A stretch of DNA of 20,592 bases from a virus, in IMG/VR virus record IMGVR_UViG_3300037840_000329, positions 1 through 20,592 of that record; one strand, written 5' to 3'. A program made the position numbers and the translations under genes. Shown piece after piece: positions 1 to 18,929 of this stretch. The notes under the pieces were generated by a model. The model did not search any database, was not told the DNA's origin, and saw only the letters and a list, made by a program, of their open reading frames with translations. Each line of letters starts with the position of its first letter. Positions within the stretch are counted from its first letter, which is position 1.

Positions 1-1037
1 AGCCGGAGCCCGCGTCCGACCATCTGTGTCATAAGCAGATTGCTCTTAGTCGGGCGACCGAGAATAATGGCGCTAACGCTGGGAACGTCGAATCCTTCGG
101 TTAAAACACCAAAATTCGTCAAAATCTGGATTTCGCGATTACGGAACGCCTCAAGATCGGCAGCGCGATCCTCTTTCGGCATCGCTCCCCAGATGGGTTT
201 CGCCGAAAAACCGGCCGCGATCGCGAGGGAAGCAATTTCGTGCGCGTGCTCGACGCCGGCACAAAAGACGATTGTCTGTCGATTAGCGCAGTAGTCGCGC
301 AAGGCCCGCAGGATGATCCCGTTCCGCTCGTCGATATTCACGGCGCTCTGGAGCTCGCCGATCGCGAAATCGCCGGCACGCATCGTAACTCCAGAAATAT
401 CGATTGTGGTCTGGAGGCGGATTGCTTTCGGATGAACGAGCCAATCGCGTGCGACGAGCTCGCGGATTCCGTAATCGCACGCGATCCGCTGATAGACGTC
501 CCCAAGCGGTTTGCCATCGGTACGGTTCGGAGTAGCGGTCACGCCGACAAGCCTCGTCTCGCGTTCATCAAGGCACCCAAAGTACGTCAAAATATCGATA
601 TACGAGTCGGCGGTCGAATGGTGTGCTTCGTCGACAATAACGAGATCGAAGGCGTTCGGCTCGAAGTCTTTGCGGCGGCGTTCGTGGAGTGACGGAACAC
701 AGGCAACGACGACAGAGCGCTGCCCGGGATGCGAAAAAAGCCCGTTTTGGCGAGGCGCGCGCCGTTGCGCCTGCTCGATCTCTACGTGCAGGGCTGGGTC
801 GACCATCGCGATCTTCGCCGCAGCTTGGTCAAGCAATTCTTCGCGGTGGGCGAGGACGAGTGCGCGCTGGCCTGGAGCCAATAGACGCTCGATGAGAGCG
901 GCGAAGAGAATCGTTTTCCCTCCGCCGGTCGCCATAACCGCAAGATCGCGCGTGACATTAGCAGGCGGATTCAGGAGTTGTTCGAGTGCGTCGGCTTGAT
1001 AATCACGCAGAGAATCGAAACGTCCGATACTCAGCAT
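1..1037 (-). CDS. Superfamily II DEAH-box helicase, partial (C-terminus off the left edge)
   Basis: Minus-strand reading frame open from ATG at 1037 to the window edge, about 345 residues. It starts MLSIGRFDSLRDYQ (a Q-like motif). Helicase motifs appear in order: Walker A ATGGGKT, VLAHREEL (Ia), DEAH box VIVDEAHH, VTATP (III), IVFCAG (IV), TEGFDVPS (V) and QMVGRGLR (VI) near the edge. This is the layout of type III restriction/RAD25-like SF2 helicases, which phages often encode for replication or recombination; ATP-dependent duplex unwinding or remodelling in the cytoplasm is inferred. The start at 1037 overlaps the stop of a 32-codon upstream gene, suggesting coupling. In-frame upstream ATGs at 1064 and 1091 are alternatives. 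It is the last visible gene of an operon promoted near 1600. Whether an extra C-terminal domain follows cannot be seen. Confidence 0.9.
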   Translation of the reverse strand, partial: MLSIGRFDSLRDYQADALEQLLNPPANVTRDLAVMATGGGKTILFAALIERLLAPGQRALVLAHREELLDQAAAKIAMVDPALHVEIEQAQRRAPRQNGLFSHPGQRSVVVACVPSLHERRRKDFEPNAFDLVIVDEAHHSTADSYIDILTYFGCLDERETRLVGVTATPNRTDGKPLGDVYQRIACDYGIRELVARDWLVHPKAIRLQTTIDISGVTMRAGDFAIGELQSAVNIDERNGIILRALRDYCANRQTIVFCAGVEHAHEIASLAIAAGFSAKPIWGAMPKEDRAADLEAFRNREIQILTNFGVLTEGFDVPSVSAIILGRPTKSNLLMTQMVGRGLR

Positions 1038-1129
1038 TTCGCGTCTTTCTTTCGCGGGTTCCATCCCCGCCGTTGCAGATTCTTGGCGCATTCCTGGACC
1101 AGCAGGCGGAAGCGGTCGCTCTTGCTCAT
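1031..1129 (-). CDS. Small basic protein, 32 aa, unknown function
   Basis: A 32-residue frame starting MSKSDRFRLLVQE and ending RKKDAKC. I do not recognise it. It is supported mainly by its position. Its ATG overlaps the TGA of the 84-residue gene upstream (ATGA at 1126-1129), and its own TGA overlaps the ATG of the helicase by 7 nt, so it bridges the two genes in a coupled operon. It is rich in Arg and Lys with a short amphipathic N-terminal half, so nucleic-acid contact is conceivable but not shown. It could instead be only a translational coupler for the helicase. Confidence 0.5.
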   Translation of the reverse strand: MSKSDRFRLLVQECAKNLQRRGWNPRKKDAKC

Positions 1130-1380
1130 GCCGGAATCTCATCGGCCGCGTTCGCCGATTCCTCGGCAGGTTCGCGGCCCTCACGCGAAACAAACGGAGC
1201 CGCCTCGTAAACGTGGCGCAACTCGGAAAGCTGCTTGACTTTATCCCAGAAATACTCGGAGTTACGAGCGAAATCGGGGTTCGAGAATAGCTCCTTGGTG
1301 ATTTCGTCTTGCAAGGCGCGCATCGCCGCACAGTAAGCCTGCATCGTCACGACAATCTGAACGGAATCGTCAAGCGCCAT
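1126..1380 (-). CDS. Hypothetical protein, 84 aa
   Basis: Begins MALDDSVQIVVTMQAYCAAMRALQ and ends ANAADEIPA. I chose ATG at 1380 because an AAGGTGG-like ribosome site lies just upstream and the ATG follows the TGA of the preceding zinc-ribbon gene by one base. A start at 1398 would add six residues and overlap that gene. The chain looks helical and mostly acidic at the C-terminus, without membrane segments or Cys motifs. No family recognised. It sits in the four-gene minus-strand operon ending in the helicase, so a DNA-metabolism accessory role is an inference from position only. Confidence 0.7.
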   Translation of the reverse strand: MALDDSVQIVVTMQAYCAAMRALQDEITKELFSNPDFARNSEYFWDKVKQLSELRHVYEAAPFVSREGREPAEESANAADEIPA

Positions 1381-1381
1381 T

Positions 1382-1522
1382 TCAGGCCACCTTCCCATGC
1401 GTCATACAGGTATCGACGGGAATCTTCTGCCCCTTGGGCGCTTCCCACGGTGGGGTCGACGAGAAAAGTTGGCCACCGCATTGCGGGCACTTCGCGTCCG
1501 TATAACCTTTGGTCTTAGCCAT
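1382..1522 (-). CDS. Zinc-ribbon-like microprotein, 46 aa
   Basis: Starts MAKTKGYTDAKCPQCGGQLF and ends DTCMTHGKVA. The CPQC pair at residues 12-15 plus C39 and H42 could form a CCCH-type zinc site. The start at 1522 is fixed by a strong AAGGAGGA ribosome site about 9 nt upstream. A longer frame up to 1687 is open but crosses the promoter region, so I reject it. This is the first gene of the minus-strand operon, promoted by the TTTACT-N18-TAGACT element at 1569-1598. Small treble-clef or ribbon proteins are common in phage early regions; the binding partner is unknown. Confidence 0.75.
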   Translation of the reverse strand: MAKTKGYTDAKCPQCGGQLFSSTPPWEAPKGQKIPVDTCMTHGKVA

Positions 1523-1568
1523 CTGATTTCGAGTCCTCCTTGGGGCCCATTGGAACCCCGATAAACTA

Positions 1569-1598
1569 AGTCTAGCACGCCATGGCTCGCCAAGTAAA
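1569..1598 (-). promoter_or_regulatory. Minus-strand promoter with central dyad (helicase operon)
   Basis: Reading on the minus strand: -35 TTTACT (1598-1593), an 18-nt spacer, TG one base before the -10, and -10 TAGACT (1574-1569). The spacer holds a perfect GCCATGGC palindrome (1579-1586), a possible repressor site. Transcription would begin near 1562, giving a 40-nt leader with a strong ribosome site before the zinc-ribbon gene. About 40 bp around it resemble the promoter at 18705-18734. Confidence 0.7.
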
Positions 1599-1606
1599 GC
1601 CCTCTT

Positions 1607-1636
1607 TTGACAAGAGGAGTCCTCGCCTGCTATCTT
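1607..1636 (+). promoter_or_regulatory. Plus-strand promoter of the KGG-protein operon, apparently leaderless
   Basis: Consensus -35 TTGACA (1607-1612), 18-nt spacer, extended -10 TGC-TATCTT (1628-1636). The expected start of transcription at about 1643-1644 coincides with the ATG at 1644, so the mRNA should lack a leader. The -35 lies inside an inverted repeat, CCTCTT-TTGAC-AAGAGG (1601-1617). A second palindrome, GAGGA-G-TCCTC (1614-1624), fills the spacer. Both are operator candidates. The promoter is back to back with the minus-strand promoter, with -35 boxes 8 nt apart. Confidence 0.75.
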
Positions 1637-1643
1637 AAGAGGG

Positions 1644-1865
1644 ATGGACACGAAAAAGGCCGGTCGGATGGGCGGAAACGTCGTCAAAGAGCGCTACGGC
1701 CCCGAATTCTACGCCGAGATGGGCAAGAAGGGCGGCGAGGCCCTGCGGGATCGGTACGGCCACGACCACTACGTCGAGCTCGGCCGCAAAGGCGCTGCTG
1801 CTCGGGCGAAAAACGCCGCCAAACGCAAACGCCTCGCCAAAAAAGAGGAGAAAGCCAGCGCATGA
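1644..1865 (+). CDS. KGG-repeat (Em/GsiB-like) small protein, 73 aa
   Basis: Begins MDTKKAGRMGGNVVKERYG. It contains about three copies of a Gly-Gly/Lys-Gly-Gly unit: GRMGGNVVKERYGPEFYAEM, then GKKGGEALRDRYGHDHYVEL, then GRKGAAARA, followed by a Lys/Ala-rich tail. This is the signature of stress-induced KGG proteins (bacterial GsiB/YciG and plant Em relatives), which are very hydrophilic and linked to desiccation or stress tolerance. In a phage it may be a cargo (moron) gene or a basic DNA-associated protein; the function here is inferred. The ATG sits where transcription should start, with no Shine-Dalgarno. It ends in an ATGA overlap with the next gene, so the two are probably coupled. Confidence 0.85.
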   Translation: MDTKKAGRMGGNVVKERYGPEFYAEMGKKGGEALRDRYGHDHYVELGRKGAAARAKNAAKRKRLAKKEEKASA

Positions 1866-2321: not shown

Positions 2322-2483
2322 GACGAGCAAACCTGCGAAGCGAGAGAATCACGGATATACGGGCAGAACCTGCTTAGGCTCCTGAATACGGATGCCGGGC
2401 AGGTTAGAACCGGGCCCATTTTCGTAAATCCTAATCCACGAACCCCGGCGTATTGCTTTTACGGGGAACTACGACTCGCTTGC
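2322..2483. repeat. Repeat-rich noncoding gap before the terminase
   Basis: No credible gene. The segment holds an imperfect direct repeat (ACGGATATACGGGCAG at 2351-2366 and ACGGATGCCGGGCAG at 2388-2402). Long-range complements AACCTGC (2367-2373) and GCAGGTT (2399-2405) are also present. CTCGCT (2314-2319) can pair with AGCGAG (2339-2344) just after the preceding stop. Such repeats next to the small terminase gene could be a terminase recognition (cos/pac) site or an operator; neither is demonstrated. Confidence 0.4.
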
Positions 2484-2489
2484 TATAAT
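2481..2489 (+). promoter_or_regulatory. Extended -10 promoter of the packaging operon, apparently leaderless
   Basis: TGC-TATAAT, a perfect extended -10 box, with no good -35 at the standard distance (ACGGGG at 17 bp). The ATG of the small terminase gene at 2498 is 8 nt past the -10, so transcription would start at or within a base or two of the start codon. No Shine-Dalgarno precedes the ATG. Confidence 0.7.
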
Positions 2490-4473: not shown

Positions 4474-4707
4474 ATGACGGTCGTTATCGAGAAAACCGCA
4501 ACCGGCTACAGCGCCTACGTCGAGGAAGTGCCGGGAATCGCGGCTGCTGGGTCGACGATGGAAGAAACGCAGCGGCTCATCCGCGAGGGGTTGGTGCTGC
4601 ACTTCGAGGCGAACCCGGAGGCGATTCCGCTGGTATTCAAGACGACGAACGGCAACGGAATAACGGCCTGGAGTTATTCCGGAACCATGTGTTTCGGAGG
4701 CGGGTAA
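4474..4707 (+). CDS. HicB-like protein, 77 aa
   Basis: Starts MTVVIEKTATGYSAYVEEVP and continues GIAAAGSTMEETQRLIREGL. This matches the HicB/DUF1902 RNase H-like beta-alpha fold (VIEKT-GY-AYVPDLPG-GDT-EET). The C-terminal 20 residues (NGNGITAWSYSGTMCFGGG) do not look like the helix-turn-helix or ribbon-helix-helix tail that full HicB antitoxins use to bind DNA. No HicA toxin lies beside it. It sits between terminase and portal, starts one base after terL, and its last codons contain the ribosome site for the portal. An orphan antitoxin-like decoy or a structural-module accessory are both possible; its role is unknown. Confidence 0.8.
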   Translation: MTVVIEKTATGYSAYVEEVPGIAAAGSTMEETQRLIREGLVLHFEANPEAIPLVFKTTNGNGITAWSYSGTMCFGGG

Positions 4708-4708
4708 G

Positions 4709-6208
4709 TTGTACGAGAGCAGCGTCTCCCAGGATTCGAGCTTTGCCTACCTCGGCGTCGACGGCTCGCCCGATTCGCCGCTGGTGCAAATGCTGATGGC
4801 GCCGGCGATCGTTCCGGGAACCGGGCCGAGTTACGAGCTTGCGAAAACCATTTTCTCATATCACCCGCTCGGCGGGCTCCTGGCTGCCGGGCCGATTACG
4901 CTCGCCCAATCGCAGCCCCGCGAGATCAACGTCGGTGCATTAGGTGCCGAGCGGATCGTCGAGCAGTTCGAGAACACGGCCAAAGGCATCGGCGTTCTCG
5001 GCGAAACGGTGCTGATTCATAACCTCATGACGCTTAGCCGCGTGTACGGGATCGCATCGCTGGGGATTGGCGAGCAGGGCGTCGACCCCGAGAAACCGCT
5101 CGATGTAAGCAAACTCGCGGATGCCGACCTCTTCTTCAACACGCTCGATCCGCTCAACACGGCGGGATCACTCGTTCTGAACCAAGACCCGAACTCGCCG
5201 ATGTATCTCAAACCGTCGGGCTTTCTCCATGTGAGCGGCAAGAAGTGGCACCCGTCCAGAGTGTTCGTGAAGATGAACGAGCAGCCGCTCTACATCGAGT
5301 GGTCGAGTTCGGCGTTTGGGTTCGTTGGGCGGTCGATCTATCAGCGCCCGCTGTTCCCGCTCAAGACGTTCCTGCAAACCATGATTACCGATCAAATGGT
5401 GACGCAAAAAGCGGGCCTGCTGGTCGCGAAGATGGAGCAGCCGGGAAGCATTATCGACAACGTGATGCAGGCGATGTTCGGGTGGAAGCGCGGCAAGCTG
5501 CGCGACGGCGTAACGGGCCAAGTGCTCGCGATCGGCGTGTCGGAAGAGATCGAAACGCTCAACATGCAGAACGTCGACAAAGCGATGACGACGCCGCGCA
5601 CCAACGTTTTAAAGAACATCGCTTCGGCTGCGGGGATGCCGGCGACCCTTATCGCTCAGGAAACCATGAGCGCGGAGTTTCACGAAGGCTCCGAAGATGC
5701 GAAGAAAGAGGCGGCCTACCTCACGTACATTCGAGCGGATATGCAAGGCGCATACGACTTTATGGACCGGATCGTCATGCGGCAGGCGTGGACGCCCGAG
5801 TTCTACGAGACGCTGTTTGTCGACTTCCCCGAGTACAAGAAGATTCCGTTCGAGACGGCATTTCACAATTGGGTGCGCTCGTTCAAAGCGACCTGGCCGA
5901 ACCTTCTGACTGAGCCCGACTCGGAAAAGAGCAAGACCGCCGACGTCAAACTCAAAGCCTTGGTAGCACTTGCCGAAACGATGGTTCCCGATATGGACCC
6001 CGAAAATAAGGCGAACTTTTTTGATTTTCTGGCGGCGAACGTGAACGAGCTTGAAGACCTGTTCGTTGGGCGGCTGGATATCGACAGCGAGAAGCTCAAG
6101 ACGTACCTGGAGGAGAATCGCGCAGAGGCGAGCGAGGCGCTGAAGCTCCAGGGCAAACAGGCGGAAGAACCTCCCGGGAAAGTGCGGCCGTTTTCCGCCG
6201 CATCCTAG
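4709..6208 (+). CDS. Portal protein (DUF1073-like), 499 aa
   Basis: The dodecameric ring at the capsid vertex through which DNA passes. The start is TTG at 4709, one base after the HicB-like stop, with GGAGG about ten bases upstream. The first ATG in frame is far inside, so TTG is well supported. Residues about 55-75 (PLGGLLAAGPITLAQ) begin the core. A stem/crown-like helical region follows, with KNIASAAGMPATLIAQ and then MSAEFHEGSEDAKKEAAYL around residues 303-342. These resemble the DUF1073/HI1409 portal motif (IAxxTGIPxTxLFGxSPxGxNATGE). The C-terminus (from about 400) is acidic and coiled. Length fits the family. Position after terminase and before the minor head protein supports the call. 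Confidence 0.85.
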   Translation: MYESSVSQDSSFAYLGVDGSPDSPLVQMLMAPAIVPGTGPSYELAKTIFSYHPLGGLLAAGPITLAQSQPREINVGALGAERIVEQFENTAKGIGVLGETVLIHNLMTLSRVYGIASLGIGEQGVDPEKPLDVSKLADADLFFNTLDPLNTAGSLVLNQDPNSPMYLKPSGFLHVSGKKWHPSRVFVKMNEQPLYIEWSSSAFGFVGRSIYQRPLFPLKTFLQTMITDQMVTQKAGLLVAKMEQPGSIIDNVMQAMFGWKRGKLRDGVTGQVLAIGVSEEIETLNMQNVDKAMTTPRTNVLKNIASAAGMPATLIAQETMSAEFHEGSEDAKKEAAYLTYIRADMQGAYDFMDRIVMRQAWTPEFYETLFVDFPEYKKIPFETAFHNWVRSFKATWPNLLTEPDSEKSKTADVKLKALVALAETMVPDMDPENKANFFDFLAANVNELEDLFVGRLDIDSEKLKTYLEENRAEASEALKLQGKQAEEPPGKVRPFSAAS

Positions 6209-6242
6209 ATACGCTATACATACGCCACGGGATACGCTATAC
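6208..6242 (+). repeat. 12-bp direct repeat, 23-bp period
   Basis: GATACGCTATAC occurs at 6208-6219 and 6231-6242, separated by 11 nt, so the copies lie on about the same face of the helix. The second copy contains the -10 box of the 6250 gene's promoter. The first supplies a weak -35 (TATACA, 6215-6220). It may be a duplicated -10 or a pair of operator half-sites. Confidence 0.75.
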
Positions 6243-6243
6243 T
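6215..6243 (+). promoter_or_regulatory. Internal promoter after portal, apparently leaderless
   Basis: TATACA (6215-6220, 4 of 6 matches to TTGACA), a 17-nt spacer, and TATACT (6238-6243). The ATG at 6250 is 6 nt past the -10 box, at the expected transcription start. The only purine-rich stretch (GAGG, 6244-6247) is too close to act as a Shine-Dalgarno site. This promoter would raise expression of the small-gene train relative to the packaging operon. Confidence 0.6.
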
Positions 6244-6249
6244 GAGGCG

Positions 6250-6462
6250 ATGGAACCACGCTCGGACTTCGAGATTATCAAAGAGATCGTAACCCGCGAA
6301 CCCTTGAAGTCTGCTGCGGGCTGGAAATCTCCAATCACGCCAAATATCGAAGAGACGGATGAAGGCAAGATTATCGAGGTTTCCGATGGGTACGTTGGCT
6401 TTGTTGCAGAGCTGACATTCGACAAGGACGGGAAGCTGGAGAGTATTGCCGCATGGGAATAA
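6250..6462 (+). CDS. Hypothetical protein, 70 aa
   Basis: Starts MEPRSDFEIIKEIVTREPLK and ends ELTFDKDGKLESIAAWE. It is acidic, with a likely helix followed by beta strands, and has no membrane segment or metal motif. I recognise no family. The start is set by the promoter geometry described just upstream. It overlaps the next gene by 10 nt, so the two are probably coupled. It is the first of a run of very small genes between portal and minor head protein, a place where phages often carry accessory genes. Confidence 0.7.
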   Translation: MEPRSDFEIIKEIVTREPLKSAAGWKSPITPNIEETDEGKIIEVSDGYVGFVAELTFDKDGKLESIAAWE

Positions 6463-6668
6463 GACCGACTTCACGGCACTATTACCTTCGGCTCGGCGGA
6501 AAGATTGAAGCCGTCAAGGCTCCGACTGCACGCCAAGCGATCATCTACGCTCTGCAACAATGGACGGACGAGGACTTCGACGCCCTACCGCGTTCGGAAG
6601 GAAACCAGCGGCTAACCTTGAGCATTGTGGAGTGTGATCCCGCCGAAATACGTGGCGGGATACAGTAG
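6453..6668 (+). CDS. Hypothetical protein, 71 aa
   Basis: Starts MGIRPTSRHYYLRLGGKIEA and continues VKAPTARQAIIYALQQWTDEDF. The beta-strand pair, then a helix with the TARQAIIYAL pattern, resembles small phage proteins that modify or inhibit host enzymes, but I cannot assign it. It starts within the end of the 6250 gene in another frame. It ends three bases before the GTG of the following zinc-finger microprotein. No signal peptide or Cys cluster (one Cys near residue 60). Confidence 0.7.
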   Translation: MGIRPTSRHYYLRLGGKIEAVKAPTARQAIIYALQQWTDEDFDALPRSEGNQRLTLSIVECDPAEIRGGIQ

Positions 6669-6671
6669 CCC

Positions 6672-6833
6672 GTGACCCGCCTCCAGCGCCTCAAACAGAT
6701 GCGAGAATTCGCCAAGGGCAAACGCGCCGCGGCCAAGCGCCTAGGGCTGTGCACGCGGTGTTACAGTGGTCCGGCGGTTACGGGGCGAACTAAGTGCCAG
6801 CCGTGCCTCGACTACCGCTCCGGCAAGGCGTAA
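6672..6833 (+). CDS. Zinc-finger-like microprotein, 53 aa
   Basis: Translates from GTG as MTRLQRLKQMREFAKGKRAA and continues with CTRC (27-30), a linker PAVTGRTK, then CQPC (42-45). CxxC-x11-CxxC is a classic four-Cys zinc site, and the N-terminal half is strongly basic, as in small DNA- or RNA-binding proteins. ATG at 6699 (residue 10) is an alternative start. The pattern CxxC...PA..G...CxxCL occurs in many phage-encoded microproteins of unknown role. The gene ends 11 nt before the next ATG, and its TAA is part of the next gene's ribosome site. Confidence 0.7.
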   Translation: MTRLQRLKQMREFAKGKRAAAKRLGLCTRCYSGPAVTGRTKCQPCLDYRSGKA

Positions 6834-6844
6834 AGGAGAAACCC

Positions 6845-8743: not shown

Positions 8744-8935
8744 ATGCTTTCTCTGCTCGTCGCCTTCTTGATTTTCTTGGTCGTCGTCTGTGTCATCGCG
8801 GCGATCGTTAGCTGGATTCTCTCGATGATTCCCGGGGTTCCGCCCTTTGCTCCCCGGATCGTCTGGGCCATTGCCGGCATCGTGGTCTTGATCTGGCTCA
8901 TCGGCCACGTTGGGCCGCTTGTCGGGATTCACTAG
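8744..8935 (+). CDS. Small membrane protein (Thivi_2564-like), 63 aa
   Basis: Starts MLSLLVAFLIFLVVVCVIAA, with a second hydrophobic stretch near the end (IVWAIAGIVVLIWLIGHVG). Two spans around SWILSMIPGVPPFAP match the Thivi_2564 family of short bacterial and phage membrane proteins. The ribosome site GAGGAGG (8728-8734) begins in the loop of a GGCCC/GGGCC hairpin (8723-8737), so initiation may depend on that structure. It is separated from the preceding gene by 51 nt without promoter signals. Function in the family is unknown; a small holin-like role is possible. Confidence 0.75.
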   Translation: MLSLLVAFLIFLVVVCVIAAIVSWILSMIPGVPPFAPRIVWAIAGIVVLIWLIGHVGPLVGIH

Positions 8936-8947
8936 TCGCGCTATACT
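8919..8947 (+). promoter_or_regulatory. Promoter P1 before the capsid operon
   Basis: TTGTCG (8919-8924), 17-nt spacer, TATACT (8942-8947), preceded by CGC as in the 6238 box. Transcription would start near 8954 but no gene follows until 9180. A terminator-like hairpin at 9032-9055 would cut a product of about 100 nt. Confidence 0.55.
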
Positions 8948-8992
8948 CGACCCCGGGACTGACTCTGTGGTTCATCTGGTGATCGAGGGGAT

Positions 8993-9019
8993 AGCGGCGC
9001 TCGTTTAGACGGGGCCGCT
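8993..9019 (+). other. Hairpin AGCGGC/GCCGCT between P1 and the terminator
   Basis: AGCGGC at 8993-8998 can pair with GCCGCT at 9014-9019 around a 15-nt loop. It would form the body of the short RNA predicted between P1 and the terminator. It is not followed by a T-run, so it is not a terminator by itself. Confidence 0.4.
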
Positions 9020-9031
9020 ATTCGTTCTGTG

Positions 9032-9055
9032 AAAGCGGGGCCGTTTCGCTTTTCT
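9032..9055 (+). terminator. Rho-independent terminator-like hairpin
   Basis: AAAGCG (9032-9037), 9-nt loop, CGCTTT (9047-9052), followed by a short T-rich stretch (TTTTC). It ends whatever is read from the small-gene train or from P1 before the capsid promoter P2. The stem is short, so termination may be partial. Confidence 0.5.
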
Positions 9056-9064
9056 AACGCCCTT

Positions 9065-9073
9065 TGGTATAAT
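9065..9073 (+). promoter_or_regulatory. Promoter P2 of the capsid operon (extended -10)
   Basis: TGG-TATAAT, a perfect extended -10 box; the -35 position (TTCGCT) is poor. Transcription from about 9080 gives a leader of about 100 nt with stable hairpins before the scaffold/protease gene. Confidence 0.65.
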
Positions 9074-9107
9074 ACGTCCACTCCGATGAGTCAGGGGATT
9101 CACGCGC

Positions 9108-9160
9108 GAGGCCCGGTTAAAAAAGCCGGGTCTCGGCATTTCCGAGGGCCGGTTGCTCGG
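9108..9160 (+). promoter_or_regulatory. Structured leader with mutually exclusive hairpins
   Basis: Stem A pairs GAGGCCCGG (9108-9116) with CCGGGTCTC (9126-9134) around an A-rich loop. Stem B pairs CTCGG (9132-9136) with CCGAG (9142-9146). Stem C pairs the same CCGAG with CTCGG (9156-9160). A and B share bases, and B and C share bases, so only some combinations can coexist. The arrangement precedes the translation start of the scaffold/protease by about 20-50 nt. Confidence 0.5.
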
Positions 9161-11419: not shown

Positions 11420-12436
11420 ATGCCCATTTCAGCACCAGAGCGAATCCTGGTTCATCCCAGCGCCGTCGAGCCGAATCTCATCGTTACGACCGCGCAGGCT
11501 TCCGGCTTTGTTGAGGACTTGGGCGGCGGAGAGCTCCGCCAACTCCTGAGCGAAAACGATAAAGTCGTCTACCAGAATCACGTCGATATCCGAACGCAAG
11601 TCGCCGCGAACCAGGCTGCGGCAAACGTCCTGCCGGGTGCGACGATCACGCTCGACTATATCCAAACGCTCGCCTACCTTCTGCGGACGCGCCAAAACTA
11701 CAATCATCTCGACGTCGCCGACGCCGGCGAGTGGAACGTAAACCTTCCGCTAGCCTATCAACTTGGCGCCCGGCAAGGGATCGCTCAGGCGATCCGCGGT
11801 GCGAATCTCTACGGTTTCAACGCCTCGAATAACGAGGGGCTGCTCAACACGCCGAACGCCGTCGTCAACACCTTACCGCCGGACCAGTATGGGAATACGA
11901 CCGTCATTACCTACGACAACGGCGCGATGTACCTGTATCTCATGCAGCAGGTCCAGGAAATCCGGCAGGCGATGTTCGCGCTCGGCTTGCCGCAAAAGGT
12001 CGTCTTCCTGGCTCCGCAGCGGGTCATCGGCCAATGGCAGTATCAGGGCATCATCCAGGTCACGAGCTACCAGCGCCCAGGCGCCGGCACGGCAACGATC
12101 GGCCAAGCGACCGAAGCAACGGCCAAGGAGAACCTCGTCGATATCGTTTGGGCCTACGACGATACGCTGATTGGCAAAGCCTCAGGCGGAAACGATGCGG
12201 TTCTGCTGGTCGTTCCCGAAGCCGTCATTCCCGAGGCGCCGATCAACACGAACGTCTTCGCGAAACTCACCCCGCAAATGTCGGCGATGACGTTACAATA
12301 CACCGCCTCGGCGGCTCCGATCGAACTCACCGGACCGATTGGCGCAGAAGGCGTCGATTTCATCGCCATGCAGCGCGTAACGTCCGGCTGGGCTCCGCGT
12401 CCGCAGGCGATCGTGATCCTCTCCATGCCCTACTAG
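11420..12436 (+). CDS. Major capsid protein (DUF2184-like), 338 aa
   Basis: Starts MPISAPERILVHPSAVEPNL. N-terminal region to about residue 60 (SENDKVVYQNHVDIRTQ), then LRTRQNYNHLDVADAGEWNV and LAYQLGARQGIAQAIRGANL. The C-terminal half has KVVFLAPQRVIGQWQYQGI and ends APRPQAIVILSMPY. These agree with DUF2184 major capsid proteins, which adopt an HK97-like fold. Length is typical. A GAGGAG ribosome site lies about ten bases upstream. It is the last gene before a strong terminator, consistent with high expression from P2 and isolation from downstream genes. Confidence 0.85.
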   Translation: MPISAPERILVHPSAVEPNLIVTTAQASGFVEDLGGGELRQLLSENDKVVYQNHVDIRTQVAANQAAANVLPGATITLDYIQTLAYLLRTRQNYNHLDVADAGEWNVNLPLAYQLGARQGIAQAIRGANLYGFNASNNEGLLNTPNAVVNTLPPDQYGNTTVITYDNGAMYLYLMQQVQEIRQAMFALGLPQKVVFLAPQRVIGQWQYQGIIQVTSYQRPGAGTATIGQATEATAKENLVDIVWAYDDTLIGKASGGNDAVLLVVPEAVIPEAPINTNVFAKLTPQMSAMTLQYTASAAPIELTGPIGAEGVDFIAMQRVTSGWAPRPQAIVILSMPY

Positions 12437-15306: not shown

Positions 15307-16140
15307 ATGAGCCTCGTCGCCAACCTGTCAGACGGCACCGCCAATACGCAGGCCACGGCCTTCGCCCCACTCTGTAACAGCGGCCCGATCAAGATTTACT
15401 CCGGTCCACAGCCGGCCAATGCGAATACGGCGACCGGAGGCAGCAATACGCTGCTCGCGACCTTGACCTTCGGGGCGACGGCTTTCGGCGCTCCTACGGC
15501 CGGGGTCTTGACCGCCAACACCATCACCTCGGGAACCGCCGGGGCGAGCGGGACGGCGACCTTCGCTCGAGTGTTCAAAAGCGACGGGACGACCGTGGTC
15601 ATGGATCTTCCGGTCGGTATTTCGGCGACGTTCGCGCTGGTCCTAAATACGGTTTCGATCACGATGGGGGATTCGGTCGGGATCGTGAGTCTGACGTATA
15701 CCATCCCGGAAGTGTATTCCGTCGTTCCCCCGACGCAGATCGCGAACATCTCCGATACAGCAGCGAATGCTCAGGCAACGGCCTTTGCACCGCTTTGCAA
15801 TAACGGGAGCATCCAGGTTTTTTCGGGCAGTCAGCCCGTGAACGCCAACACGGCACTCTCGGGGAATACGCTTCTCTCGACATTGCGGTTTAGTGCGACG
15901 GCTTTCGGGCCGCCTACAGGTGGGGTTCTTACGGCCAATCCGATCGCCTCGGGAACGAATGTCGCATCCGGCACCGCTAGCTTCGCCCGCATCTATCAGA
16001 GCGACGGAATGACGGTCGTCATGGATGTGCAGGTGGGGCTTGCTGGGGGCGGTTACGGCATCGGTCTGAATACCGTCAACATGGTCGATGGGGCCGCGCT
16101 CTCGCTCACTTCGTTCTTGTATTCCGTTTTGGAAACGTAG
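15307..16140 (+). CDS. Tandemly duplicated beta-rich structural protein, 277 aa
   Basis: Two homologous halves. Unit 1 (residues 3 to about 137) starts LVANLSDGTANTQATAFAPL; unit 2 (about 144-277) starts QIANISDTAANAQATAFAPL. Each then has IKIYSGPQP/IQVFSGSQP, LLATLTF/LLSTLRF, ATAFGxPTxGVLTAN, an Ala/Gly-rich stretch and FARxxxSDGxTVVMD. The unit resembles short phage structural domains of the xIYDGTQP...LATLTFxxxAF type. An Arg-poor, Thr/Ser/Gly-rich composition suits a beta-sandwich exposed on the virion. A GGGAG site precedes the ATG, and the next gene's AGGAGG straddles its stop. The tail-region role is inferred. Confidence 0.75.
   Translation: MSLVANLSDGTANTQATAFAPLCNSGPIKIYSGPQPANANTATGGSNTLLATLTFGATAFGAPTAGVLTANTITSGTAGASGTATFARVFKSDGTTVVMDLPVGISATFALVLNTVSITMGDSVGIVSLTYTIPEVYSVVPPTQIANISDTAANAQATAFAPLCNNGSIQVFSGSQPVNANTALSGNTLLSTLRFSATAFGPPTGGVLTANPIASGTNVASGTASFARIYQSDGMTVVMDVQVGLAGGGYGIGLNTVNMVDGAALSLTSFLYSVLET
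15313..16137 (+). repeat. Internal tandem duplication (about 420 bp units)
   Basis: Unit 1 begins near 15313 and unit 2 near 15736, offset 141 codons. The protein similarity is clear, while the DNA has diverged (for example CAGGCCACGGCCTTCGCCCC against CAGGCAACGGCCTTTGCACC), so the duplication is old rather than an assembly artefact. Confidence 0.8.
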
Positions 16141-16147
16141 GAGGCGT

Positions 16148-18253
16148 ATGAAACTCTTCGCTGCGATCTTTGCGATAGTCGCGGTAATGCTCGGGTCGCT
16201 GGTAGCCGCCCAGGCGCAGATCGTTGGTCCTTCGACGTTCAGTTTCACCGCCGGCAGCCAAAGCAATACGTGGAATTGTACGAGCGGACAGAGTACGTTT
16301 CAGCTTACGATGCCGACCGGCATGACGGGCGTTCTTACGGTGACGGTCGCTCAAACCTCCGGCGGGACCTATGTGAATCCGCCGTGGGCCTACGCACCAG
16401 GAGTCCCAACGTATGCGAATACACTTACGAACTCCGGTTCCCTGACGGTCATCCTCGGATCGAACTATTACGTTAAGGTCGCAGATACGACCTATTCTTC
16501 CGGGAGCGTGACGGTAACGGGAAGTTGCAGTAACGGGGTATCGGCAATCCCACCGCAGGCGACGAATTCGCCTCTTCCGGTGCCCGTAAGTGTGCTCAAT
16601 GGTGGAACCGGAACCTCATCTCCGAATCCGGTCGTCACGGCAACCGCTTGCGCGGCCTCCCCTGCGTGGTCGAATGCGTTTCCATCCGGGACGCTTCAGG
16701 TTCCCGCCGGATGCGCTACCCCCAGCGCGACGAATTCTCCACTGCCGGTTCCGGTAACGGTTGCCAACGGAGGCACCGGCACGGCCTCTCCAAACCCTAC
16801 CGTAACGGCGACGGCTTGCGCCGCTTCGCCCGCCTGGTCGAACGCCTTCCCCTCGGGAACGCTTCAGATTCCCTCGGGATGCGCGACACCTAGCGCAACG
16901 AACTCGCCTTTGCCGGTCCCGGTGACGGTTGCCAACGGCGGCACGGGAACGTCTTCTCCCAATCCGAGCGCGACGGCGACAGCCTGCGGAGCAGCGGTAG
17001 CCGATACAGGCTCATTCCCTTCGCAAGTCGTCAACGTCCCGGTTTGCCCGACCGCATCGCCTGGACCGTCGCTGCCGCTCTCGGTCGCGAACGGCGGCAC
17101 CGCGACCGCCCAGCCCTCTCCCGCAGCCACGGCGACGGCCTGCGGTGCGGCTCCCGCCTATACGGGCACCTGGCCCTCGCAAACCCTCGATGTTCCCATC
17201 TGCGCGACTTCTACGGGCATTACGAGCATTGGCGCGGGGAACGATATCGTCGTGACCGGCGCGGCGCCATCGCCTTCAGTTGCAGTGACGAATCAGCCGA
17301 CCTTCTCAGGATCATTAGCGGTTGACGGTGCTTCTGCTCCGACGAATGGCTATGGCGGCGGCGTGGCCGGTTCGACGGCCTTAACCTTTACCGCCACGAC
17401 AAACTCGACGACGACGACCGGGTTTGTTTTCAATACCTCGACGGCATGCCACCTCGCAACCGATACGCTCTTTAACGTCAAGGTAAACAGCACGACGAAG
17501 TTCTCGGCAACCTGCGGCGGAGCGATTGCAGGGCTCGGTTATATCGAAGCGGGCTCGGGGAATTCACCCTCGTCGAGTGTTGCGGCTGGGGACTTGAGCG
17601 GCTCTGAATCGTCGACACAGGGCGAACTTTGGCTCGGCGGCTCCTCGAAAGTCTATACGCAGGACCTTGGGGTTACGACGGCGAGCACCGCAACTTATAA
17701 TATTCCATCGGGCGATACCTACGCCTGGGATATAAACAGCAGCAAGGTCCTTGGGTTATCTTCAACCACCCTGACGGCAAGCACCGGGCTCATAAATATG
17801 GGAACCGCGAATGCACAAATGGAATTTGCTGCTGGGACTATGAGTTGGGCGGTTCCATCGAGCGACAATTATGCTTGGAATGTGAATCTAACGCAGGTCG
17901 CTAGTCTTTCATCTGCTGGCGTATTCGCAACCTCCGCGCAGATTGAATCCGCCGCCCTTTCGAACTCCACTACCACGCAAGGCTATCTTATGCCCACCTA
18001 CACGCATACAGGGGTCGCGTCCAACTCTACCGTTCATTGCATCGTTGATACCGTCGTAGCAGGAGGTGCGAGCACAACTATTACACTTACCGCCGCTACG
18101 GCAGCGATCTTTTCCACGGGCGTTTCAATGGCAACGGCTAACGACGTAACTACGGGAGCAACTAGCACAGTCACGGGCGTTAGCGGCAACTCAATGCTCA
18201 TTTCCCCAACGGTAAACGGGCAAACGTATGCCTATCAAATGTGCGGCTACTAA
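16148..18253 (+). CDS. Fibre/appendage-like protein with signal peptide and 56-aa repeats, 701 aa
   Basis: Starts MKLFAAIFAIVAVMLGSLVA and continues AQAQIV, a textbook Sec signal peptide (cut after AQA likely). Residues about 25-135 form a beta-rich domain. Four repeats start at 138, 194, 250 and 305, each with PLPVPVxVxNGGTGT, SPNPxxTATAC and a closing Cys-containing segment. The NGGTGT motif and a following ITSIGAGNDIVVTGAAPSP segment (from 358) are typical of phage tail fibres. The region 400-701 is Thr/Ser/Gly-rich and repetitive, ending TVNGQTYAYQMCGY. AGGAGG lies four bases before ATG 16148; a longer frame from 16088 overlaps the previous gene. Virion fibres normally have no signal peptide, so an exported or hybrid role is possible. 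Confidence 0.7.
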   Translation: MKLFAAIFAIVAVMLGSLVAAQAQIVGPSTFSFTAGSQSNTWNCTSGQSTFQLTMPTGMTGVLTVTVAQTSGGTYVNPPWAYAPGVPTYANTLTNSGSLTVILGSNYYVKVADTTYSSGSVTVTGSCSNGVSAIPPQATNSPLPVPVSVLNGGTGTSSPNPVVTATACAASPAWSNAFPSGTLQVPAGCATPSATNSPLPVPVTVANGGTGTASPNPTVTATACAASPAWSNAFPSGTLQIPSGCATPSATNSPLPVPVTVANGGTGTSSPNPSATATACGAAVADTGSFPSQVVNVPVCPTASPGPSLPLSVANGGTATAQPSPAATATACGAAPAYTGTWPSQTLDVPICATSTGITSIGAGNDIVVTGAAPSPSVAVTNQPTFSGSLAVDGASAPTNGYGGGVAGSTALTFTATTNSTTTTGFVFNTSTACHLATDTLFNVKVNSTTKFSATCGGAIAGLGYIEAGSGNSPSSSVAAGDLSGSESSTQGELWLGGSSKVYTQDLGVTTASTATYNIPSGDTYAWDINSSKVLGLSSTTLTASTGLINMGTANAQMEFAAGTMSWAVPSSDNYAWNVNLTQVASLSSAGVFATSAQIESAALSNSTTTQGYLMPTYTHTGVASNSTVHCIVDTVVAGGASTTITLTAATAAIFSTGVSMATANDVTTGATSTVTGVSGNSMLISPTVNGQTYAYQMCGY
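16559..17212 (+). repeat. Coding tandem repeats, 168-bp period
   Basis: Unit starts at 16559, 16727, 16895 and 17060. The first two spacings are exactly 168 bp; the third is 165 bp. Units 1 and 2 are the most alike (both contain CAASPAWSNAFPSGTLQ), units 3 and 4 more diverged. Synonymous differences dominate between units 1 and 2, suggesting selection on the protein. Confidence 0.85.
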
Positions 18254-18258
18254 AGCCT

Positions 18259-18681
18259 TTATCGCAACGTGAACGTGTAGACCGATTCCGCTGGCAGATT
18301 GGTAAAACGCGTATCCCCCTTCGACTTCCCATTGATCCATAACCGCCCGACGACGAGCTTCCACGGGCGCAAGGCGAAGCGCATCGTCCACTGACACCCA
18401 TACTCGGAACCTTGATGCAGATTGCAACCTGCATAGGTCGTTAGTCCCTTTTGCTCGGCGATGCCGGTTTGCCAAAAACCATGAGGTGTATAAAAGGTGA
18501 ACACAACCATCTGCGCCCGTTCGATCTCTGCCTGCGTCATCCAAACAGTGAAGGTCACAGCGGTCTCGGTTTGCGGTTCGAAGCTTAAAGCGGCGCGCGA
18601 AGGAGCCAGTGGAAGCGCGCTCGGCTGGGCACAGGCGGCCAGCGAGATCTCAAGCCCGAGGGCGGCAAGTAGGCGGTTCAT
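18259..18681 (-). CDS. Putative lipoprotein, 140 aa, opposite strand
   Basis: Starts MNRLLAALGLEISLAACAQP: short positive N-terminus, hydrophobic core and lipobox LAAC with Cys17, so lipidation and membrane anchoring are likely. A Glu within the core (residue 11) is unusual. The mature part is beta-rich, with FEPQTETAVTFTVWMTQAEI and Cys pairs (AGCNLHQGSEYGC), ending SVYTFTLR. No family recognised. The AAGGAG site 9 nt before the ATG fixes the start. It lies between fibre and lysis genes, convergent with the former (5 nt apart), and is driven by a promoter nearly identical to that of the helicase operon. A lysogenic-conversion or superinfection-exclusion role is an inference. Confidence 0.8.
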   Translation of the reverse strand: MNRLLAALGLEISLAACAQPSALPLAPSRAALSFEPQTETAVTFTVWMTQAEIERAQMVVFTFYTPHGFWQTGIAEQKGLTTYAGCNLHQGSEYGCQWTMRFALRPWKLVVGRLWINGKSKGDTRFTNLPAESVYTFTLR

Positions 18682-18704: not shown

Positions 18705-18734
18705 AGTTTAACACCCTAGGGCTTGCCGAGTAAA
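18705..18734 (-). promoter_or_regulatory. Minus-strand promoter of the lipoprotein gene, with dyad
   Basis: On the minus strand: TTTACT (18734-18729), 18-nt spacer, TG one base before the -10, TAAACT (18710-18705). A CCCTAGGG palindrome (18714-18721) lies in the spacer. GATAA at 18696-18700 is placed as in the helicase promoter, and 12 of 18 spacer bases are identical to it. Transcription would start near 18698, leaving a short leader with an AAGGAG site. Confidence 0.7.
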
Positions 18735-18815: not shown

Positions 18816-18929
18816 ATGCCGGACGCCAGCATATCGCTCGTCATTGGGCTGGGGATTCTCGGCCTGGTGTCGCTCTTTGCCATGCTGGCGTTCTTCTTCG
18901 CGCTTGCCATACGGAACGGTCAGAAATGA
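18816..18929 (+). CDS. Membrane microprotein, 37 aa (lysis cassette)
   Basis: Starts MPDASISLVIGLGILGLVSL and ends FFFALAIRNGQK. One long hydrophobic span (residues about 6-31) with an acidic, short N-terminus and a basic C-terminus, implying N-out topology. AGGAG lies six bases upstream of the ATG; a GTG immediately before is an alternative. It overlaps the next gene by ATGA. First gene of the lysis module, so a pinholin- or antiholin-like role is possible, but a 37-residue protein cannot be assigned by sequence alone. Confidence 0.65.
   Translation: MPDASISLVIGLGILGLVSLFAMLAFFFALAIRNGQK

Follow-up and report, generated by a model that had tools for sequence, protein, structure and literature searches.

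What connects two closely similar promoter-like elements that lie some 17 kb apart in a phage genome, each upstream of a minus-strand unit? The window, by which we mean the whole stretch of DNA analysed, is an IMG/VR contig of 20,592 bases. Its plus strand codes for terminase, portal, head and structural proteins and an endolysin, and two units were recognised on its minus strand, a helicase unit at the left end and a lone lipoprotein-like gene. The original prediction saw in the pair an element through which a common regulator would control these two units together, as for genes expressed early or in lysogeny. Our analysis favours a different reading. The two elements are probably genuine sigma70/SigA-type extended –10 promoters of a single class, employed across this phage and in one relative, and as part of that reading the spacer bases that they share would mark promoters of the whole lineage rather than form an operator private to two units.

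The two minus-strand elements

The elements, their positions and their conservation are seen directly in the DNA. The features concerned are:

3..1331, minus strand: DNA helicase gene (PHROG 16, E = 2.7e-80; domain from about residue 105), overrunning the left end of the contig
1126..1398, minus strand: ORF of 90 amino acids without a family match
1382..1522, minus strand: first gene of promoter 1, translated as a 46-amino-acid protein with one CxxC (Zn-ribbon-like) motif
1598-1558, minus strand: putative promoter 1, TTTACT-TGGCGAGCCATGGCGTGC-TAGACT-TAGT-TTATCGG, heading the CxxC gene, the 90-amino-acid ORF and the helicase gene; –35 at 1598-1593, 18-nt spacer at 1592-1575 ending in TGC, –10 at 1574-1569, TTATCGG at 1564-1558
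1607..1636, plus strand: putative divergent promoter, TTGACA-18-TATCTT with TGC before the –10, from a hexamer-consensus scan in which the spacer was not used
1644..1865, plus strand: gene for a KGG/LEA_5-like small protein, downstream of the promoter at 1607 (Pfam LEA_5, E = 6e-9, just under the cut-off)
2466..2489, plus strand: weaker extended –10 site, TGC-TATAAT with a poor –35, 8 nt before ATG 2498 of the ORF preceding TerL; spacer signature 4/6
18259..18681, minus strand: predicted lipoprotein of 140 amino acids with an LAAC lipobox, from translation
18734-18694, minus strand: putative promoter 2, TTTACT-CGGCAAGCCCTAGGGTGT-TAAACT-AAAG-TTATCGG, heading the lipoprotein-like gene; –10 TAAACT at 18710-18705, TTATCGG at 18700-18694
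18816..18929, plus strand: ORF of 37 amino acids with a hydrophobic segment, from translation, divergent from promoter 2

Both elements are present on the minus strand with the hexamers, 18-nt spacer and extended –10 originally described, and the claimed agreement at 12 of 18 spacer positions was reproduced. The module common to promoters 1 and 2 consists of a TTTACT –35 box, the 18-nt spacer, TGn, TARACT and TTATCGG, the TTATC lying at the same distance from the –10 in both, as claimed (4 nt, TAGT or AAAG). The –35 and –10 hexamers of each site match the sigma70/SigA consensus at 4/6 positions, and in hexamers, spacing (16–18 nt) and TGn the sequences conform to an extended –10 promoter. Transcription is predicted to start at the A of TTATCGG (A1562 for promoter 1, near A18698 for promoter 2). 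The leader from promoter 2 to ATG 18681 is 17 nt and carries AAGGAG, and that of promoter 1 is about 40 nt and carries AAGGAGG; a 5′ leader hairpin at 1562-1520 is not stronger than in shuffled sequence. The AGAGGG reported before each –35 box is indeed found at both sites, but at different offsets, being one base farther away at 1598 than at 18734. Near 1598 it sits between two back-to-back –35 boxes.

More than a chance resemblance

Counted from the –35 box, promoters 1 and 2 are identical at 31/44 bases. The best 44-base frame reaches 33/44 and is the top ungapped direct match in the window between sequences separated by over 2 kb; in 32 dinucleotide shuffles of the window the maxima were 29–32/44. 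Taken by itself this is moderate evidence, since the pair exceeds the best shuffle by just one base, as might be seen if two GC-rich promoter-like stretches resembled each other by chance. Two further findings make the case against chance strong, namely the position of each copy directly ahead of a minus-strand unit and the outcome of a matrix test in a related phage. Built solely on promoters 1 and 2, a 30-bp weight matrix ranks positions 9032-9061 of IMGVR_UViG_3300047324_000048 (47 kb; L001, L057, L058; hereafter L001) first of the 97,882 positions in that record, a confirmation after the fact because the site had first been noticed by eye. This site, TTGAAC-AAGCGAGGCCTGGTGTGT-TATGAT, precedes a leftward helicase operon whose first gene codes for a small CxxC protein, the same role as that of the element at 1598, and the L001 helicase is the closest found to that of the window (79% identity). 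A chance similarity is thus very improbable, and is already largely refuted by the repeat, spacer-score and leave-one-out tests. The similarity beyond the hexamers is non-random, as the original prediction held.

The search pattern offered with that prediction, CCGATAA-N8-AGTYTA-N18-AGTAAA, has the wrong gap and matches nothing in the window. With N4 in place of N8 the pattern, which was derived from the two sites themselves, finds exactly these two with no mismatches, and none in 100 shuffles.

A spacer signature in five predicted promoters of two phages

The bases A(–25)G(–24).C(–22)C(–21)T(–20).G(–18)..TG(–15,–14) recur in five extended –10 promoters of two phages. All five have A(–25), C(–22), T(–20), G(–18) and the TG at –15/–14, and G(–24) and C(–21) are each found in four. 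We scored spacers on the six bases AG.CCT.G from –25 to –18. When promoters were picked by their hexamers and TG alone, the five in the two phages all scored 5–6/6, and the same picks in other phage loci scored 1–3. Among the 28 TGnTAnnnT sites of the two phages, scores of at least 4 fall only at promoter positions and the remainder score at most 3. A score of 5/6 is not attained by any of 324 such sites in the 17 loci taken from other related phages; in all other collected loci it is attained by 10 of about 1,380 sites, of which four are a coding match preselected by our own relaxed pattern. The five spacers have a mean pairwise identity of 8.5/16 over the non-TG positions, compared with a null of 4.4 ± 0.5 (0 of 100,000 random sets reach the observed value), and on leaving one out every spacer falls within the top 0.03–1.8% of the positions of its genome. 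The six-base consensus was built from four of the five promoters, so that only 11025+ of the L001 record is fully independent; it scores 5/6 and is the weakest in the leave-one-out test.

The corresponding helicase unit in L001 carries the same spacer signature upstream, as a shared promoter class would. That phage has two extended –10 promoters, one at the start of the helicase operon and the other ahead of the KGG gene. We regard the signature as general, and not as an operator of two units, because it is also present on the KGG-gene promoter of the window and on both of these L001 promoters. For the same reason a regulon confined to the helicase and lipoprotein units is not supported.

Among the sequences covered, the signature is narrowly distributed. 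Relatives by capsid, TerL and PHROG 6216 protein were added to the comparison, and L001 is the only one of 26 records screened that carries it. Neither the exact nor the relaxed element patterns gave a full-element match in the viral and genome collections; over all viral contigs the relaxed pattern found only the L001 site and one coding match in four near-identical phages. A 41-bp matrix run over 592 kb of sequence gave strong matches at the two original elements only. The Acidobacteriota phage Tunturi_3, which has the best helicase bit score among the listed phages, was considered as a further carrier and rejected, since no site there scores above 4/6. A limited search of part of the literature found no paper describing the spacer signature.

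The putative divergent promoter and short leaders

The plus-strand promoter at 1607-1636 lies back to back with promoter 1 and carries the spacer signature at 6/6. Its spacer agrees with those of promoters 1 and 2 at 11/18 and 9/18 bases (counted by hand). The –10 ends 7 nt before ATG 1644 of the KGG gene, whose transcript is predicted to be leaderless or nearly so. L001 has a homologue of this gene (58.5% identity over 41 amino acids) with its own promoter, TAGACA-17-TATAAT with TGG before the –10, and the 7-nt distance from –10 to ATG is exactly the same in both phages. The KGG-gene promoters resemble in this the leaderless promoters of Zheng et al. (2011, PMC3160421), where a TA-like signal precedes the start codon by about 10 bp; promoters 1 and 2 differ in having leaders with Shine–Dalgarno sites. 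Near-leaderless promoters may be common in these phages, given the TATAAT before the ORF that precedes TerL and, in the phage locus L028, a TATACT that is separated by 6 nt from the ATG with which the ORF at 756 begins; this ORF overlaps a TerS-like match.

A perfect dyad, CCTCTT-TTGAC-AAGAGG, spans 1601-1617, centred on the –35 box of the plus-strand promoter and abutting that of promoter 1. It may serve the two divergent promoters as an operator or a weak terminator, and is absent at 18734.

Genomic setting

Matches of the 46-amino-acid CxxC protein to Pfam zinc ribbons are weak and sub-threshold. A search for relatives of the predicted lipoprotein found none, and its single-sequence model, all-beta and of low confidence (pLDDT 63), has no fold match below E = 0.001. 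A scan of the genome collection for the helicase returned a distant helicase only.

The genome is mosaic, as seen at 11420-12436 and in the helicase gene (3-1331). The nearest named phages for capsid, portal and head genes are those of Shewanella, Klebsiella and Yersinia (about 37–49%), and the structural genes of the phage with the 79%-identical helicase are mostly unrelated to those of the window. A small HicB-like ORF (4474-4707; Pfam HicB_lk_antitox, E = 0.00046, below the cut-off) lies between the terminase and portal genes. Internal direct repeats (33–37/44) occur at 15324-17126, in a structural gene (15307-16140) and a large tail-fibre-like gene (16088-18253). The region 8930-9160 is apparently non-coding and contains TATACT and TATAAT motifs and a GC-rich hairpin, GGCCCGG-TTAAAAAA-GCCGGGTC; the Rfam search gave no match, for this region or otherwise, and the tRNA search found none.

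What might read the spacer?

Lytic phages carry repeated host-type early promoters, several similar sigma70-type promoters to a genome. The promoters described here are of this known kind, and what distinguishes them is the spacer signature, found also in a phage whose structural genes are mostly unrelated. Regulators are known that bind within the spacer: promoters of the MerR family have a 19–20-nt spacer with a central dyad, and Arc-type operators lie between –35 and –10. A recognition site in our promoters would fall in the same place, but their spacers are 17–18 nt and have no in-register dyad, and we therefore rejected a MerR-type promoter.

The extended –10 promoters of bacteria resemble ours in their hexamers, 17–18-nt spacer, TGn and A at the predicted start, and differ in lacking the extra conserved bases from –25 to –18. 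Conservation there is unusual because the open complex of Thermus aquaticus polymerase has no protein–DNA contacts from –29 to –18 (PMC4593229). Either a further factor reads these bases, or the shape of the spacer has been selected.

It is this absence of contacts that lends interest to the regulator originally proposed, a phage or host repressor or activator that would bind the shared element, at +1 and between –35 and –10, and co-regulate the two minus-strand units specifically. Conserved bases that polymerase does not touch suggest another reader, and the exact TTTACT and TARACT boxes and the TTATCGG over +1 are common to the two minus-strand promoters only, the last a feature for which a general signature does not account. 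In addition, L001 encodes at 6000-6836 (minus strand) a possible LexA-type winged-helix protein, a weak candidate regulator (Pfam LexA_DNA_bind, E = 0.0017, below the cut-off). Yet the signature is equally a property of the divergent plus-strand promoter and of the promoters of another phage, and no regulator was recognised in the window. Each spacer does contain an 8-bp palindrome, as noted originally (expectation 0.03 per spacer), but measured from the promoter the two centres are offset by one base, and the copies have no in-register dyad in common, the best shared axis having 4/13 symmetric pairs. This argues against one symmetric operator, and on these grounds a palindromic site for a dimeric repressor of the cI/Cro, Arc or TetR type was rejected. 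The suggested link with lysogeny also lacks support, as neither the window nor the L001 ORFs scanned or inspected yielded a recognisable integrase or cI-type repressor, both records being possible fragments. We consider a regulator dedicated to the two units unlikely. A trans-acting factor may read the spacer.

Common descent offers another route to the resemblance. One promoter could be a fairly recent copy, moved with the lipoprotein gene as a moron-like cassette, so that the similarity would reflect descent more than function. The similarity covers the entire module from –36 to +5, TTATCGG included, and the lipoprotein gene stands alone in antisense orientation, flanked by tail-fibre-like and endolysin genes. 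Against this, the similarity ends abruptly outside the promoter, and the bases retained include spacer bases that recur in another phage, which descent alone would not predict. A recent copy seems to us improbable, more so than a dedicated regulator.

Returning to the promoter class shared by this phage and its relative, host RNA polymerase would start at the A of TTATCGG and so bring about expression of the lipoprotein gene, which stands alone, and of the leftward helicase unit. The signature might be read by an extra DNA-binding factor of host or phage, or act through the conformation of the spacer. A bolder and rather doubtful extension is that AGnCCTnG (–25 to –18) is a third promoter element in phages of an uncharacterised host lineage, recognised by a dedicated host or phage factor placed between the –35 and –10 contacts of sigma. 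In any event the analysis yields a short and testable promoter signature for these phages. Should a factor read the spacer, the signature would be a promoter element at a place where the known polymerase structure shows no contacts; failing that, these are ordinary host-type promoters of phages, whose value lies in annotation.
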